Source: Halobacterium sp. R2-5
Lineage (GTDB): Archaea > Halobacteriota > Halobacteria > Halobacteriales > Halobacteriaceae
Direction: 5' to 3'
DNA length: 64,000 bases
Assembly: GCF_011734195.1 (NCBI RefSeq)
Contig: NZ_JAANTH010000001.1
Coordinates: 992,001 to 1,056,000, forward strand
Positions 40,843 through 49,559 of this stretch are shown here, piece by piece (within the stretch, counting starts at the first letter, position 1; every line of letters starts with the position of its first letter). The translations under genes and the position numbers were made by a program. A model generated the notes under the pieces. It saw only the letters and a list, made by a program, of their open reading frames with translations. It searched no databases and was not told the origin of the DNA.

Positions 40843-41307
40843 ATGGCACGAATGCACACGCGCCGCCGTGGGTCGTCCGGCTCGGACCGCCCGGCGGCAG
40901 ACGAACCACCGGAGTGGAGCGACGTAGACGAGGAAGCAATCGAGGACCGCGTGGTGGAGCTCGCCGAACAGGGGCACGACCCCTCGCAGATCGGCCTGAA
41001 GCTCCGCGACGAGGGCGTGCAGGGCACGCCCGTCCCGGACGTGAAGCTGGCGACGGGGAAGAAGGTCACCGAGATTCTGGAGGAGAACGACGCCGAGCCC
41101 GAGCTCCCGGAGGACTTCCGTAACCTCCTGGAGAAGGCGGTTCGGCTGCGCGAGCACGTCCAGGAGAACGGGCAGGACCACCAGAACAAGCGCGCGCTGC
41201 AGAACACGGAGTCGAAGCTCCGTCGGCTCGCCAACTACTACCGCGGCGACGAGCTCGACCAGGACTTCAAGTACTCCTACGAGAAGGCGAAGGAGCTCCT
41301 CGAATAG
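40843..41307 (+). CDS. rps15: 30S ribosomal protein S15 (uS15)
   Basis: 154-residue archaeal/eukaryotic-type uS15, a primary binder of the 16S rRNA central domain. The archaeal N-terminal extension MARMHTRRRGSSGSDRP is followed by PEWSDVDEEAIEDRVVELA, GLKLRDEGVQGTPVPDVK and the conserved helical core DFRNLLEKAVRLREHVQENG and SKLRRLANYYR. ATG 40843 matches homologues. First gene of a tight operon: the RecJ-like gene starts at the base after its stop codon. Confidence 0.97.
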   Translation: MARMHTRRRGSSGSDRPAADEPPEWSDVDEEAIEDRVVELAEQGHDPSQIGLKLRDEGVQGTPVPDVKLATGKKVTEILEENDAEPELPEDFRNLLEKAVRLREHVQENGQDHQNKRALQNTESKLRRLANYYRGDELDQDFKYSYEKAKELLE

Positions 41308-42372
41308 ATGGCGACGACGGGACGCACTGCGGCCGCGACCGAGCCCGACGCCGAGTCGGTGCTGAGCGACGCGGACTTCGTTCGCGTGGCGGCGGCGCCG
41401 ACCGGCGGGAGCATCGCGGCGGCTGCGATGCTCGCCGACGCGTGCGAGGAGCGCGGCGTGCCGTACCAGGTGCGCGCGACTCGCGGCACGCCGGACTCGG
41501 AGGCGGCCGATGCGTCCCTCGTGGCAGTCGGCGTCGAGTCGCCGGCGGCCGACGCGGTGTTCGCAGAAGACGCGCCGAACGCGGCGTTCGACGCGGCACG
41601 AGCGGTCGGCGCGGACCCCGACCCGGTGCTCGCGTTCGCGGGCGCGCTCGCAGACGGCATCGAGCCGTCCGAGGACGTCCGAGACACCGCGGACCTGACG
41701 CGGCGGCCGGGCGTCGGGATTCCGACCGCGGACCTCGCGGCGGGCCTGGCGCACTCGACGCGCGTCCACGCGTCGTTCTCCGGGGACGAGCAGGCGGCGG
41801 GCGCGACGCTCGCCGAACTCGGCCTCCCGCCGGAGCTCGACGAGGCGGCGCGACGCAGACTCGCGTCCGTCGTCGCGCTCGACGCGACCGACGCCGGGAC
41901 GGCTCGCGCCGCGGACAGCGTCGCAGGCGTGCTCCGCCCGCACGAGACGCCCGACGGCCCCTTCGAGACGGTCGAGGGGTACGCGGACGTGCTCGGTGCG
42001 CTGGCGTGGGCGGCGCCCGGACTGGGCGTCGCGCTGGCGCTCGGCGCGGTCGACTCGCCGGCTGCGCTGGACGCGTGGCGCGACCACGCGAAAGCGGCGC
42101 ACGCGGCGGTCCGGCGCGCGGACCCGTCGCGGTACAGCGCGGTCGAGGTCGTCGAGGCCGACGCCGCGCAGCCGACCGTCGCGCGGCTCGTTCGGGACTA
42201 CCGCGCCCGCGAGCCCGCGGTGCTCGTCGTCGGCGACGACACCGGCGCACTCGCGACGACGGACGCGGACGCCCGCGACGTCCTCCCGAACGGCGCGGGG
42301 ACGTCGACGCTAGCCGTCGCGGACGCCGAACACGAAGCCGACCTCGTGGAGACAGTGCGGGGTGCGCTATGA
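41308..42372 (+). CDS. RecJ-like (DHH family) protein, probably inactive
   Basis: 354 residues. Position between rps15 and pcc1 and overall pattern (N-terminal Rossmann-like FVRVAAAPTGGSIAAAAMLA, RGVPYQVRATR, then ADLAAGLAHSTRVHASFSGD and a C-terminal DHHA1-like part) identify the haloarchaeal RecJ/GAN-like family. The catalytic DxDG motif is replaced by PTGG and no DHH is present, so nuclease activity is unlikely. Archaeal RecJ-like proteins associate with the GINS-MCM helicase or process DNA/RNA ends. Very Ala-rich. Start adjoins the rps15 stop; end overlaps pcc1 by four bases (ATGA). Confidence 0.75.
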   Translation: MATTGRTAAATEPDAESVLSDADFVRVAAAPTGGSIAAAAMLADACEERGVPYQVRATRGTPDSEAADASLVAVGVESPAADAVFAEDAPNAAFDAARAVGADPDPVLAFAGALADGIEPSEDVRDTADLTRRPGVGIPTADLAAGLAHSTRVHASFSGDEQAAGATLAELGLPPELDEAARRRLASVVALDATDAGTARAADSVAGVLRPHETPDGPFETVEGYADVLGALAWAAPGLGVALALGAVDSPAALDAWRDHAKAAHAAVRRADPSRYSAVEVVEADAAQPTVARLVRDYRAREPAVLVVGDDTGALATTDADARDVLPNGAGTSTLAVADAEHEADLVETVRGAL

Positions 42373-42608
42373 CGCGGGCGGCGACGATTCGCACCGAGGT
42401 ACCGGACCCCGGACTCGTCGCGGCCGCGGTCCGCCCCGACAACACCGCCGAGATGGACACGCGAGTCGAGGACGGCGGTGTCGTCACGCGCATCGAGCGC
42501 GACGACACCGGCGGCCTCCAGTCGACGGTCGACGACTACGTCGTGAACGTCACGGTGGCGACCGAAGTTGCACAGCACGCGAACCGACACACGACACACG
42601 AATCATGA
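42369..42608 (+). CDS. pcc1: KEOPS complex subunit Pcc1
   Basis: 79-residue dimerisation subunit of KEOPS, the complex that with Kae1 and Bud32 makes t6A37 in ANN-decoding tRNAs. Typical features: short alpha/beta fold with AAAVRPDNTAEMDTRVEDGG and the helix-forming LQSTVDDYVVNVTVATEVAQ. ATG overlaps the RecJ-like stop and the TGA overlaps the rps3ae ATG, so all three genes are translationally linked. The rps15-recJ-pcc1-rps3ae order is conserved in haloarchaea as far as I recall. Confidence 0.9.
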   Translation: MTRAATIRTEVPDPGLVAAAVRPDNTAEMDTRVEDGGVVTRIERDDTGGLQSTVDDYVVNVTVATEVAQHANRHTTHES

Positions 42609-43228
42609 GCGAACGTTCCGTATCCAAGCAGAACCAGGAGAAACGGTGGTACACCGTGCTCGCGCCGGAGGAGTTCGACCGGCAGGAGCTCGGCGAGACG
42701 CCCGCCGACGAGCCAGAACAGATCTACGACCGAACCATCGAGACGACGCTCGACGAACTCGTCGACGGCGGCGAGAACAACGTCAAGCTCACCTTCCAGG
42801 TGAACGACGTCGGCAGCGACACCGCCTCTACCGAGTTCGTCAAGCACGAGCTCACGCGCGACTACAAGCGTAGCCTCGTGCGCCGCGGCTCCTCGAAGAT
42901 CGGCGTGACCATCACGGTCCTCACGACGGACGACTACCGCTTGAAGGTCCAGCCGGTCGCGTACACCACGAAGCAGGCCGACCAGAGCCAGCAGAAGGCC
43001 ATCCGCCGAACGATGATCGACCTCGTGGAGGAGGCCGGCGAGGACCGCACGTTCGAGGCCCTCATCGACTCCATCATCGAGGGCCGGCTGTCCTCGGCGA
43101 TCTACGACGAGGCGAACACGATCTACCCGCTCCGCCGCGTGGAAGTCCAGAAGACGACGCTCGAAGCGCCGCCCGAGGAAGTCCACGAGGAGGAAGAGAC
43201 GTCGGTCGGCGTCGAGGACGACGCCTAA
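42605..43228 (+). CDS. rps3ae: 30S ribosomal protein S3Ae (eS1)
   Basis: 207-residue archaeal/eukaryotic-specific ribosomal protein eS1. Recognised from KRWYTVLAPEEFDRQELGET, the DELVDGGENNVKLTFQVNDV segment and IYPLRRVEVQKTTLE near the C-terminus, with a final acidic tail (EEVHEEEETSVGVEDDA). ATG 42605 overlaps the pcc1 stop. Last gene of the operon; a palindromic T-rich element follows 22 bases after the stop. Confidence 0.96.
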   Translation: MSERSVSKQNQEKRWYTVLAPEEFDRQELGETPADEPEQIYDRTIETTLDELVDGGENNVKLTFQVNDVGSDTASTEFVKHELTRDYKRSLVRRGSSKIGVTITVLTTDDYRLKVQPVAYTTKQADQSQQKAIRRTMIDLVEEAGEDRTFEALIDSIIEGRLSSAIYDEANTIYPLRRVEVQKTTLEAPPEEVHEEEETSVGVEDDA

Positions 43229-43286: not shown

Positions 43287-43733
43287 TCACTCGGTGACGA
43301 CGACTTTCCCGACCATCCCAGCGCTCTCGTGGGGGATGCAGACGTAGTAGTAGTCGCCGGGCACCTCGAAGGTGTGCTCGTAGGTCTCGCTCGGGCGGAC
43401 GATGCCGCCGCCGTCGATGCTCTGCTCCCACGCCTCGCGGGCGGCCTGCTCGCTCTCGAAGCCGCCGGACGCCCAGTAGTCGGCGCCCTCGGGGAGGCCG
43501 TCGTCGTAGGCGGTGACGGTGTGGTTCCGGGAGCCCGTGTTCGCCCAGACGACGGTGTCGCCGACGGCGGCCTCGAACGTCGGGACGTCCGCGCCCTCGA
43601 CGGCTGGCTCGGGGACGAACGCGTTCGACTGCATGCCGATGTCGTACTCGGAGTCGGACAGCGACGGGCCGACGCAGCCGGCCAGCGCCGCGGTCGCGGA
43701 AGCTCCTGCGGCGAGGAACGCCCGGCGTTGCAT
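43287..43733 (-). CDS. Halocyanin-like blue copper protein
   Basis: 148-residue membrane-anchored plastocyanin-type electron carrier. Tat signal MQRRAFLAAG with lipobox LAGC (Cys20). The cupredoxin domain carries the type 1 copper ligands H71 (NHTV), C132, H135 and M140 in YVCIPHESAGM. ATG 43733 is chosen because it starts the Tat signal; an upstream in-frame extension is Arg/Ala-rich and unlikely. Halocyanins shuttle electrons at the outer face of the membrane to terminal oxidases or reductases. No partner enzyme is adjacent. Confidence 0.94.
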   Translation of the reverse strand: MQRRAFLAAGASATAALAGCVGPSLSDSEYDIGMQSNAFVPEPAVEGADVPTFEAAVGDTVVWANTGSRNHTVTAYDDGLPEGADYWASGGFESEQAAREAWEQSIDGGGIVRPSETYEHTFEVPGDYYYVCIPHESAGMVGKVVVTE

Positions 43734-43867
43734 GGTCGACACTCGGACCGTCCGGCATTTATACGGCGCGGTCCGGGCCCGTGGCGCGGGAACGCGCGAC
43801 GCCACCGCCCTCGCGCGGGCGGGTGCGGATGTAAACACGTAAAGGCGCCTGCCGAGATGCGTGGAAC

Positions 43868-47537: not shown

Positions 47538-49430
47538 CTACCGCTTCGGGGCGCTGTGGAGCTCCTCGTCGAGTTCGGCGTCCGCCATCTTCTCGATGAG
47601 GGATTCGAGGACTTCCTCGCGCATCCCGGGGACGAAGCGGATGGAGCCGACGACGAGGTGGCCGCCGCCGGAGACGCCTGCACCCGGCAGCTCCTCGTTG
47701 AGGTCCTCGACCATCGTCGGGATGTCGAGGCGCACGCCGTCGCTGCGCAGGACGGCGAAGTCCGGGCCGTAGCCGATGGTGATGACGGGTTCGCCGGTCT
47801 CCTCGACCTTGCGGTCGTGGATCTCGCCGGTCGTCTTCCCGGGCGCGGGGTACGTGAACCGGTGGGCGTGGTTCTCCACGTCGATGCGGTAGAGGTTCGC
47901 GCCGTTCGCGACGCGCTCGTGCTCGACGTGCGAGGACGCGGCGTCGAGCTGTTCGGTGACGTCCTCGGCGGCGCGGTTCGCGAGGAACGGCACGAGTTCG
48001 CGGTGGCGCTCCTCGTCGCCGTCGACGTTCAGCACGTCGTTGATGAGCTGCGTGCCGGGGTCGTAGCGAAGCATGTACGCCTCGTAGTCGAGGGCCTCGC
48101 TGATGTGCTGGAGGAACTCCTCGTCGTAGCCGGCCTCGCGGGCGAGCTCGAGGTAGTCGGCCATCTCCGTGGCCTTCGAGCGGTCCGAGAGCCCCGCGAC
48201 CGCGGGGACGTGTTCGAGCTCCTCGGTGAGCCCGGGGTAGATCATGCGCGCGAGCTCCACGCAGAGCATCCCCGTGGTGATGCGGTAGTCCTCGCCGTGG
48301 AGGTACGGGTTGACGTGCTCCTCGACGAGCGGGTCCACCGCCTCGGGGTCGGGGTGGTGGTGGTCGACGACGACGATGGGGATGTCGTAGCTGTCGAGGG
48401 CCCTGTAGGCGGGCGTGTCCTCCTCGGTGCTACCGTTGTCCAGCATGAGCAGGAGGGGGAGCTTCTGGCCGTGGCGCGCGCGGTCCTCCAGCGCGAAGTT
48501 CAGGTCGCGGGTGGCGTCCTCCATCTCGTAGTACGGCGCCTTGCTGGGGAGGCGCTTGAGGAGGTGGCGCGCGGCGTCGGCGTCCTGGTGGGCGTCCTCG
48601 ATGAACTGCGTGAGCGCGTACTGGACGGGGACGGCCGCGCACATGCCGTCGCCGTCGGCGTGGTGGCGCATCCGAATCGGGCGGCCTTCGAGGACCGCGC
48701 GGCGGAGCGTGCGCGCGACCGAGCGGAGTTCGGGGAGCATGCCTTCGAGGGCCGGCCAGTCGACGAGCGGGTCGACGTCCAGCGGCTCGGCCCGCTCGGC
48801 GAGCGCGGCGTCCAGCCGGCCCGCGACGTCCGCGGCGTCCTCGTCGTCGAGCACTTCGATGCTCGCGACCTCGATCTGGTAGGTTCCCTCGCGCTCCTCG
48901 ACGTCGCCCTCGACGTGGACGAGGTCACCGACTTCGACGACGGGGTGGGCGCGGACGCCCGCGGCCTCGAAGGCCGTACAGGGGACGGCGCTGGTCTCGT
49001 CGCGCACGCGGAAGATGGTCGGGCCCGCAGTCTGCTTGATCTGGACGACTTCCCCCTCGACGTGGACGGTCTCGCCGACGCGGTCGCCGACCGTCTCGGC
49101 GTCCGTGCGGTCGTAGCTGTGCGCGCGTTCGACGGTCTCGTAGTCGTCGAGGCTCGCGAGCTCGAAGCTCAGGTCGCCGTTGTCCCGGACTTCGGTGAGC
49201 TTCACGACGGCGTCGTCGTCGACGGCGAGGTCGCGGTCGCCGTCGAACGTGGACTCGTGGACGAGCCCGGAGACGTGCTCGGAGAGGTCGACGAAGACGC
49301 CGTAGTCGACGACGCCGTTCACGGTCGCGTGGTAGTACTCGTCGGGTTCGACCTCCTGGGAGGTACACGCGGAGTGGAGGTCGACGACGACCGGGCGGTC
49401 GCCCGCGTCGTCGGCTGAAACGTCAGTCAT
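47538..49430 (-). CDS. DHH-family phosphoesterase with S1/OB domains (RecJ-like)
   Basis: 630 residues. Order: an S1 RNA-binding domain (about 30-95, ATVNGVVDYGVFVDLSEHVS), an OB-fold nucleic-acid domain (about 115-200), then a DHH core with RHHADGDGMCAA (DxDG motif) and VVDHHHPDP (DHH motif), and a C-terminal DHHA1 domain ending with SGGGHLVVGSIRF. All catalytic motifs are intact, unlike the RecJ-like protein at 41.3 kb. The S1 domain suggests RNA as well as DNA substrates. ATG 49430 follows a TATA-like TTAAAAAC (minus strand, about 49452-49462). Confidence 0.93.
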   Translation of the reverse strand: MTDVSADDAGDRPVVVDLHSACTSQEVEPDEYYHATVNGVVDYGVFVDLSEHVSGLVHESTFDGDRDLAVDDDAVVKLTEVRDNGDLSFELASLDDYETVERAHSYDRTDAETVGDRVGETVHVEGEVVQIKQTAGPTIFRVRDETSAVPCTAFEAAGVRAHPVVEVGDLVHVEGDVEEREGTYQIEVASIEVLDDEDAADVAGRLDAALAERAEPLDVDPLVDWPALEGMLPELRSVARTLRRAVLEGRPIRMRHHADGDGMCAAVPVQYALTQFIEDAHQDADAARHLLKRLPSKAPYYEMEDATRDLNFALEDRARHGQKLPLLLMLDNGSTEEDTPAYRALDSYDIPIVVVDHHHPDPEAVDPLVEEHVNPYLHGEDYRITTGMLCVELARMIYPGLTEELEHVPAVAGLSDRSKATEMADYLELAREAGYDEEFLQHISEALDYEAYMLRYDPGTQLINDVLNVDGDEERHRELVPFLANRAAEDVTEQLDAASSHVEHERVANGANLYRIDVENHAHRFTYPAPGKTTGEIHDRKVEETGEPVITIGYGPDFAVLRSDGVRLDIPTMVEDLNEELPGAGVSGGGHLVVGSIRFVPGMREEVLESLIEKMADAELDEELHSAPKR

Positions 49431-49559
49431 CTTTGCCGTCAATTCGGCGTCTGCGTTTTTAACCCTTTTCAAGGCCGTCTCGCGGGCGAACGCGGCGCTC
49501 GCCCGGTCGCCCAGCGGCGTTCCGGAAGCCTCAACAGTCGCCGCCGCGGACTACCGAGT

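Follow-up and report, generated by a model that had tools for sequence, protein, structure and literature searches.

Why would haloarchaea keep a RecJ-family protein that has lost its active site, in a compact operon of ribosomal protein and KEOPS genes? The question is raised by a protein of 354 amino acids from Halobacterium sp. R2-5, encoded in the window (the whole stretch of 64,000 nucleotides analysed here). Its lineage is archaeal GAN/Cdc45, within which it falls in arCOG00428 with RecJ2 of H. volcanii, and we refer to it as RecJ2. That haloarchaea carry this gene in an inactivated form, in such an operon and with a likely structural role in replication, is already known and has been in print since 2012. 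Makarova, Koonin and Kelman (PMC3307487) describe the inactivated DHH domain and the S15/S3/Pcc1 neighbourhood for arCOG00428 of Halobacteria, infer orthology to GAN, which sits in the same operon in T. kodakarensis, and suggest that the protein has a structural function dedicated to replication. RecJ2 is placed in arCOG00428 and predicted to be inactive in a 2023 mBio paper (PMC10470531), where RecJ4 is an inactive scaffold. The passages of a 2020 Open Biology review on haloarchaeal Cdc45 treat its identity as a question with four RecJ candidates and leave RecJ2 open. Among the passages retrieved in our literature search on the role of haloarchaeal RecJ2, we found no study that settles it.

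The RecJ2 locus

The operon is made up of four genes, as far as it was read from its first gene.

40843..41307, plus strand: rps15 (uS15), the first operon gene read (Pfam)
41308..42372, plus strand: gene of the RecJ2-type protein, 354 amino acids, haloarchaeal GAN/Cdc45 orthologue without an active site (open reading frame, family profile, model, fold, tree)
42369..42608, plus strand: pcc1, KEOPS subunit (NCBIfam NF011470)
42605..43228, plus strand: rps3ae (eS1) (Pfam)

The recJ2 reading frame is intact (354 codons), and the order is rps15, recJ2, pcc1, rps3ae. The TAG of rps15 (41305-41307) is followed directly, with a junction of zero bases, by the ATG of recJ2 at 41308; the TGA of recJ2 overlaps the ATG of pcc1 (42369) by four bases, and pcc1 overlaps the ATG of rps3ae (42605) by the same length. 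The neighbours are recognized by profile (S15 and S3Ae by Pfam, Pcc1 by NCBIfam with 62.9 bits). Coordinates and profiles thus agree with the preliminary description, which had placed the gene between rps15 and pcc1 with zero-base and four-base junctions and the eS1 gene following. The nearest named relative is from Halobacterium sp. KA-4 (86% identity over residues 12-354). All 80 named haloarchaeal RecJ2 loci have S15 upstream in the same orientation (gap of -1 to 149 bases), and 78 of them have Pcc1 downstream, the other two loci ending early. The operon is followed closely, on the opposite strand, by a lipoprotein-like reading frame (window 43287-43838, minus strand) that by eye resembles halocyanin/plastocyanin.

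RecJ2 belongs to the archaeal GAN/Cdc45 lineage

Searched alone, RecJ2 gives no match in NCBIfam or among PDB sequences and no notable match in Pfam, where the best is PTS_IIB at E 0.07; this lies below the cut-off, and the identity was dismissed. The NCBIfam GAN models NF053575 and NF053576 do not match it, although NF053576 is weakly matched by 15 of 26 orthologues (best 1.8e-5). A match above the cut-off to the HAN model NF053577 is also missing, as are the S1 and OB domains of HAN. The profile built from the 26 orthologues, by contrast, finds MthRecJ-Cdc45 (7bhi, E 1.1e-4), TkoGAN (5ghr, 3.4e-4) and PfuRecJ (5x4h, 0.0063). Two amidotransferase-like PDB chains at E of about 0.03 look unrelated and were dismissed. 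Since the single-protein searches failed, the kinship to RecJ is visible only by family profile or fold.

The AlphaFold2 model (70 sequences; mean pLDDT 94.3, pTM 0.92) has the DHH, helical insertion, stem and DHHA1 fold. In Foldseek its top matches are archaeal RecJ-Cdc45 chains (7bih_A, 1.9e-14), and Cdc45 of eukaryotic CMG structures follows at about 1e-5 to 1e-4. VIA-align superposes the model on MthRecJ-Cdc45 (7bih_B) with Z 28.3 (329 residues, rmsd 2.9), on PfuRecJ (5x4i) with Z 25.4 (341 residues, rmsd 3.4) and on human Cdc45 (5dgo) with Z 17.5 (328 residues, rmsd 4.2, 11% identity). The comparison with GAN and Cdc45 that had been proposed as a check on this protein gives matches to both RecJ-Cdc45 and Cdc45. 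For bacterial RecJ, eight entries among the matches listed align over 252-269 residues, consistent with a bacterial RecJ that has no CMG-interacting domain. However, VIA-align pairs only 245-253 residues in the TkoGAN chains (5ght, 5ghs and 5ghr) but 332 in M. jannaschii RecJ2; membership in CMG cannot be read from the aligned length.

The gene tree (58 sequences, 376 columns) comprises 22 operonic and 20 haloarchaeal sequences, 15 of 30 fetched RecJ1-type sequences and the RecJ1 of the genome itself. Haloarchaeal RecJ2 and operonic RecJ split from the RecJ1 type with support 100; support is also 100 for haloarchaeal RecJ2 as a clade and for this clade together with the genes of two genomes, G230 and G040, that are described below. 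The stem of haloarchaeal RecJ2 is long in this tree, and long-branch effects are possible. Profile, fold and tree together confirm the membership in the archaeal RecJ/GAN family that had first been read from position and pattern.

Loss of the catalytic motifs

Four regions were delimited within the gene, with boundaries set from the model and from the domain order in Pellegrini's review.

41392..41415, plus strand: former motif I, codons 29-36 (A-A-P-T-G-G-S-I region), with T32-G33-G34-S35 at the DxDG positions (alignment with 22 intact operonic orthologues)
41482..41607, plus strand: codons 59-100, shortened, the site of motifs II and III (DHH) in intact orthologues (alignment, conservation)
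41695..41943, plus strand: putative CMG-interacting domain (CID), codons 130-212 (limits inferred from the secondary structure of the model and the order of domains in the literature)
41944..42369, plus strand: helical stem and DHHA1-like domain, codons 213-354, followed by the stop codon (boundaries inferred from model and fold)

RecJ2 lacks the catalytic motifs I-III of GAN. Motif I had been described as PTGG in place of DxDG: the PTGG is real and the motif is lost, but the reading is shifted by one residue relative to the aligned positions given above. The reported absence of the DHH motif holds in the alignment with intact orthologues, in which neither motif II nor motif III has a counterpart in RecJ2. 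The spacing from motif I to motif IV is 80 residues, compared with 100-116 in three intact orthologues, and the aspartate of motif IV is still aligned (D116).

Distribution of RecJ2 and timing of the loss

Of 391 genomes from the class, each with a completeness of 90% or more, 387 contain a match to RecJ2. Among the four others, G196 is cut at a contig end, in G199 the contig ends just after S15, and G230 and G040, both placed in class Halobacteria, carry a RecJ gene with its motifs complete at the same position (L195:1104-2213 and L196:998-2257, respectively). A search guided by S15 in 30 genomes located RecJ directly downstream in 22; in seven it is not there, and in one the contig ends. All 22 operonic orthologues (20 from outside the class and those of G230 and G040) keep motifs I-IV, with DADG as motif I in 21 and DVDG in one.

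Neither motif II nor motif III is present in any of 132 main-haloarchaeal RecJ2 proteins, which are an uneven sample of the 387 (105 picked by closeness to the window protein and 27 low-scoring). Motif I has both aspartates in 82 of these (10 of them also with the glycine), one in 22 and neither in 28. The last group includes all 11 Halobacterium proteins (L003-L013) and at least 11 from Haloferax, where the proteins compared are from species other than H. volcanii itself. The motif IV aspartate is found in 13 of the 132 proteins: all 11 from Halobacterium and two from Halosimplex, that is, two of the 121 others. The preliminary description had held that intact orthologues in close relatives would speak for simple decay here. 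Motif II/III-bearing genes are absent from the main haloarchaea sampled, yet the two sister-lineage genomes do carry intact ones.

A few sequences were treated separately. The 27 low-scoring loci come from 30 genomes; those of G034, G320 and G120 were left out of the motif count. In G034 and G320 the match falls in three pieces inside one long frame, in G120 the gene is split over contig ends, and in G274 it is interrupted by a run of N. In G100 (L260) and G287 (L261) the RecJ2 gene is spread over two frames, either by an apparent frameshift or through an error of sequencing. Three fragments (L025, L028 and L030) were set aside, and L073 and L103 were excluded from the 78 references, 69 of which were aligned.

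In a tree of S15 and S3Ae (S15 alone for G230), G230 and G040 branch as sisters of 23 haloarchaea, with support 100 for the joint clade and 77 for the 23 alone. Our guess is that the two genomes belong to the Halorutilales/Afararchaeaceae, a group named in PMC13082222. Given the trees, the intact genes of G230 and G040 and the absence of both motifs from all 132 proteins, the disappearance of motifs II and III maps to the stem leading to the main haloarchaea. By the same sequence comparisons, motif I decayed later, completely so in Halobacterium and some others. In the literature passages on the inactivated gene we met neither the motif-intact genes of the sister lineages nor a loss in two steps, although both may have been published elsewhere.

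The S15-RecJ-Pcc1 order is also found with a four-motif RecJ in 20 genomes outside the class and in the two sister genomes inside it, so the operon predates the inactivation. It was inherited together with a motif-intact RecJ and does not point to a newly acquired function with the ribosome or KEOPS.

Selection on RecJ2

Across 11 Halobacterium genomes (55 pairs, Nei-Gojobori), the median dN/dS of RecJ2 is 0.29 (range 0.143-0.377); in the same genomes it is 0.157 for S15, 0.151 for S3Ae and 0.426 for Pcc1. Along the protein, dN/dS is 0.497 for residues 1-24, 0.321 for residues 25-125, lowest at 0.21 for residues 126-245, and 0.296 for residues 246-354. Across 70 orthologues 14 columns are invariant, G33 among them. 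The most conserved regions are the CID-like stretch (residues 130-212; JSD 0.523, 20% of columns at 90% or above), the stem (213-272; JSD 0.538, 32%) and the strand-helix-strand around former motif I (23-58; JSD 0.523, 25%). Within the fold, conservation is lowest at residues 59-100, where motifs II and III once stood (mean JSD 0.356, 5% of columns at 90% or above).

An active site that is lost in a gene that selection keeps implies a non-catalytic role. This had been suggested at the outset, and the matches in 387 of 391 genomes and the median dN/dS bear it out.

A probable role in the replicative helicase and its alternatives

The computations show the lineage and fold of RecJ2, that motifs II and III are missing, that the gene is kept under purifying selection, and on which branch the loss took place; on these grounds RecJ2 is most probably a non-catalytic, Cdc45-like subunit of the CMG helicase. 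Like Cdc45 in eukaryotes, it would serve as a scaffold without nuclease activity that connects GINS with MCM in a replicative helicase of the CMG type, presumably by binding GINS51 and MCM, and nuclease work may have passed to the active paralogues RecJ1 and HAN. The constant slot between S15 and Pcc1, the good conservation of the CID-like and stem stretches, a GINS-like gene beside PriS in the same genome and the reported binding of GINS by GAN of T. kodakarensis also favour this role. The helicase is accordingly the better supported half of the earlier suggestion of a helicase or ribosome scaffold; the ribosomal half is unsupported, the operon being older than the inactivation. The further suggestion that the tight operon points to a KEOPS link between replication and tRNA modification is unsupported as well, because the same order carries an all-motif RecJ in 22 genomes.

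Four points run counter to the Cdc45 role. According to Pellegrini's review, GINS contacts lie mainly on the DHH domain, which is the most eroded part of RecJ2; RecJ1 is as universal as RecJ2, and the 2020 review, going by arCOG, ranks it first among the candidates for GAN; CMG members are not set apart by their aligned length; and the long haloarchaeal stem leaves room for long-branch effects in the gene tree. The second point leads to an alternative in which active RecJ1 is the haloarchaeal GAN/Cdc45 and RecJ2 is the scaffold of some other assembly, for instance of its operon partners (ribosome, KEOPS) or of a complex for RNA processing, as the inactive RecJ4 bridges RecJ3 and aRNase J. RecJ4 is indeed a published precedent for an inactive RecJ acting as a bridge, and the operon with S15, Pcc1 and S3Ae is tight. 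Universality, however, cannot tell RecJ1 and RecJ2 apart as Cdc45 candidates, since both have it. In the 2020 review, RecJ1, RecJ3 and RecJ4 are reported as non-essential even combined, against essential GINS and MCM (for RecJ1, RecJ3, RecJ4 and GINS alike from unpublished data), and it is RecJ2 that clusters with the operonic lineage, which is GAN's own by position. Scaffolding of operon partners also fits poorly with an operon that held an all-motif RecJ before the inactivation, and with a second RecJ2 copy in the Halobacterium genome G012 that has no S15, Pcc1 or S3Ae nearby. We regard this alternative as unlikely.

Two other explanations start from the former active site itself. At that face RecJ2 might bind a ligand (metal, nucleotide or single-stranded nucleic acid), an ability either retained or newly gained and unrelated to CMG; both motif I aspartates in 82 of the 132 proteins, the invariant G33 and the conserved strand-helix-strand would fit. 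With both aspartates gone in 28 proteins (including all those of Halobacterium), one gone in 22 and motifs II and III gone in all 132, such binding seems quite improbable. That the RecJ2 gene is simply in decay and persists only through its operon is barely credible: the lost motifs, the long stem branch and the apparent frameshifts in two of the 30 low-scoring genomes (G100 and G287) are set against the matches in nearly all genomes of the class, with no stops among the matches listed, dN/dS values of 0.143-0.377 in every one of the 55 pairs and the 14 invariant columns.

The preferred reading, a Cdc45-like RecJ2, can be set beside known systems. RecJ2 shares its lineage, S15/S3/Pcc1 neighbourhood, inactivated DHH domain and proposed replication role with arCOG00428 and H. 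volcanii RecJ2 (HVO_1147); nothing essential differs from arCOG00428 as described in 2012, except that the window protein additionally lacks both motif I aspartates. GAN of Thermococcus, PfuRecJ and MthRecJ-Cdc45 have the same fold, and GAN has the same operon position in T. kodakarensis, where it is reported to bind GINS (PMC3307487; 2020 Open Biology review), but these are reported to be active nucleases with the DHH set, whereas RecJ2 lacks motifs I-III. Eukaryotic Cdc45 is similar in fold over 328 residues and in having no catalytic activity (2020 review); it is larger, and in the scenario of PMC3307487 it lost catalysis independently. Crenarchaeal RecJdbh, likened to RecJ2 by description only, is a RecJ derivative without activity that partners GINS in a CMG-like complex (2020 review); its inactivation was a separate one (PMC3307487). 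HAN/RecJ3 and RecJ4 share the DHH superfamily with RecJ2, and RecJ4 is published as an inactive scaffold; they differ in their S1 and OB domains (seen in the HAN of the window), operon and lineage.

Tree, synteny and timing point to RecJ2 as the haloarchaeal Cdc45, which is directly testable in H. volcanii. We lean, with less assurance than for the role itself, towards a fuller scenario in which the nuclease of the helicase was lost once, on the main-haloarchaeal stem just after the split from the G230 and G040 lineages, motifs II and III going first and motif I later and more than once. If true, a CMG without nuclease activity would have arisen here independently of those in eukaryotes and Crenarchaeota, at a dated point and in genetically tractable organisms that retain an active RecJ1 for repair. 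The intact sister-lineage genes would offer a natural before-and-after pair that bears on the purpose of a nuclease inside an archaeal helicase.

Paralogues and GINS in the genome

A RecJ1 with all motifs is encoded in the same genome (L001), and RecJ1 is found in 382 of 382 genomes, above the cut-off in 381. The window itself contains one paralogue.

47538..49472, minus strand: HAN (RecJ3 type), Hef-associated nuclease (NCBIfam NF053577)

This gene scores 1072.7 bits (cut-off 840), has S1 and OB domains by Pfam and shows, by eye, the motifs HADGDG, LDNGS, VVVDHHHP and GLSDRS. The second DHH protein noted at 47.5 kb does retain all motifs, and the gene is HAN.

Pfam PF05916 did not identify GINS in the same genome. 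A GINS-like gene adjoins PriS (contig C2, L229:2385-3260), overlapping the end of the PriS gene by four bases; it matches Gins51_C at E 1.1e-5, just under the Pfam cut-off, and the NCBIfam Gins23 model at 5.6e-8, far under the cut-off. Such marginal matches in both collections mean that haloarchaeal GINS is easily missed.

The second, diverged RecJ2-type gene of G012 (contig C5, L230:9737-10927) encodes 396 amino acids, with YPDGDS as motif I, among genes that by eye are plasmid- or virus-like. As a query it has no relative among plasmids; the window RecJ2 has none among phages, and no relatives of the haloarchaeal RecJ2 alignment were found in viral contigs. Two further genes were seen in the genome of the window. 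A HAN-like gene on contig C2 (745789-747762, minus strand; 333 bits, below the HAN cut-off) is probably RecJ4. On contig C1 (L002:1414-2823), a DHH-family protein of 469 amino acids has a weak RecJ match and an N-terminal part that by eye is nucleotide-binding-like.
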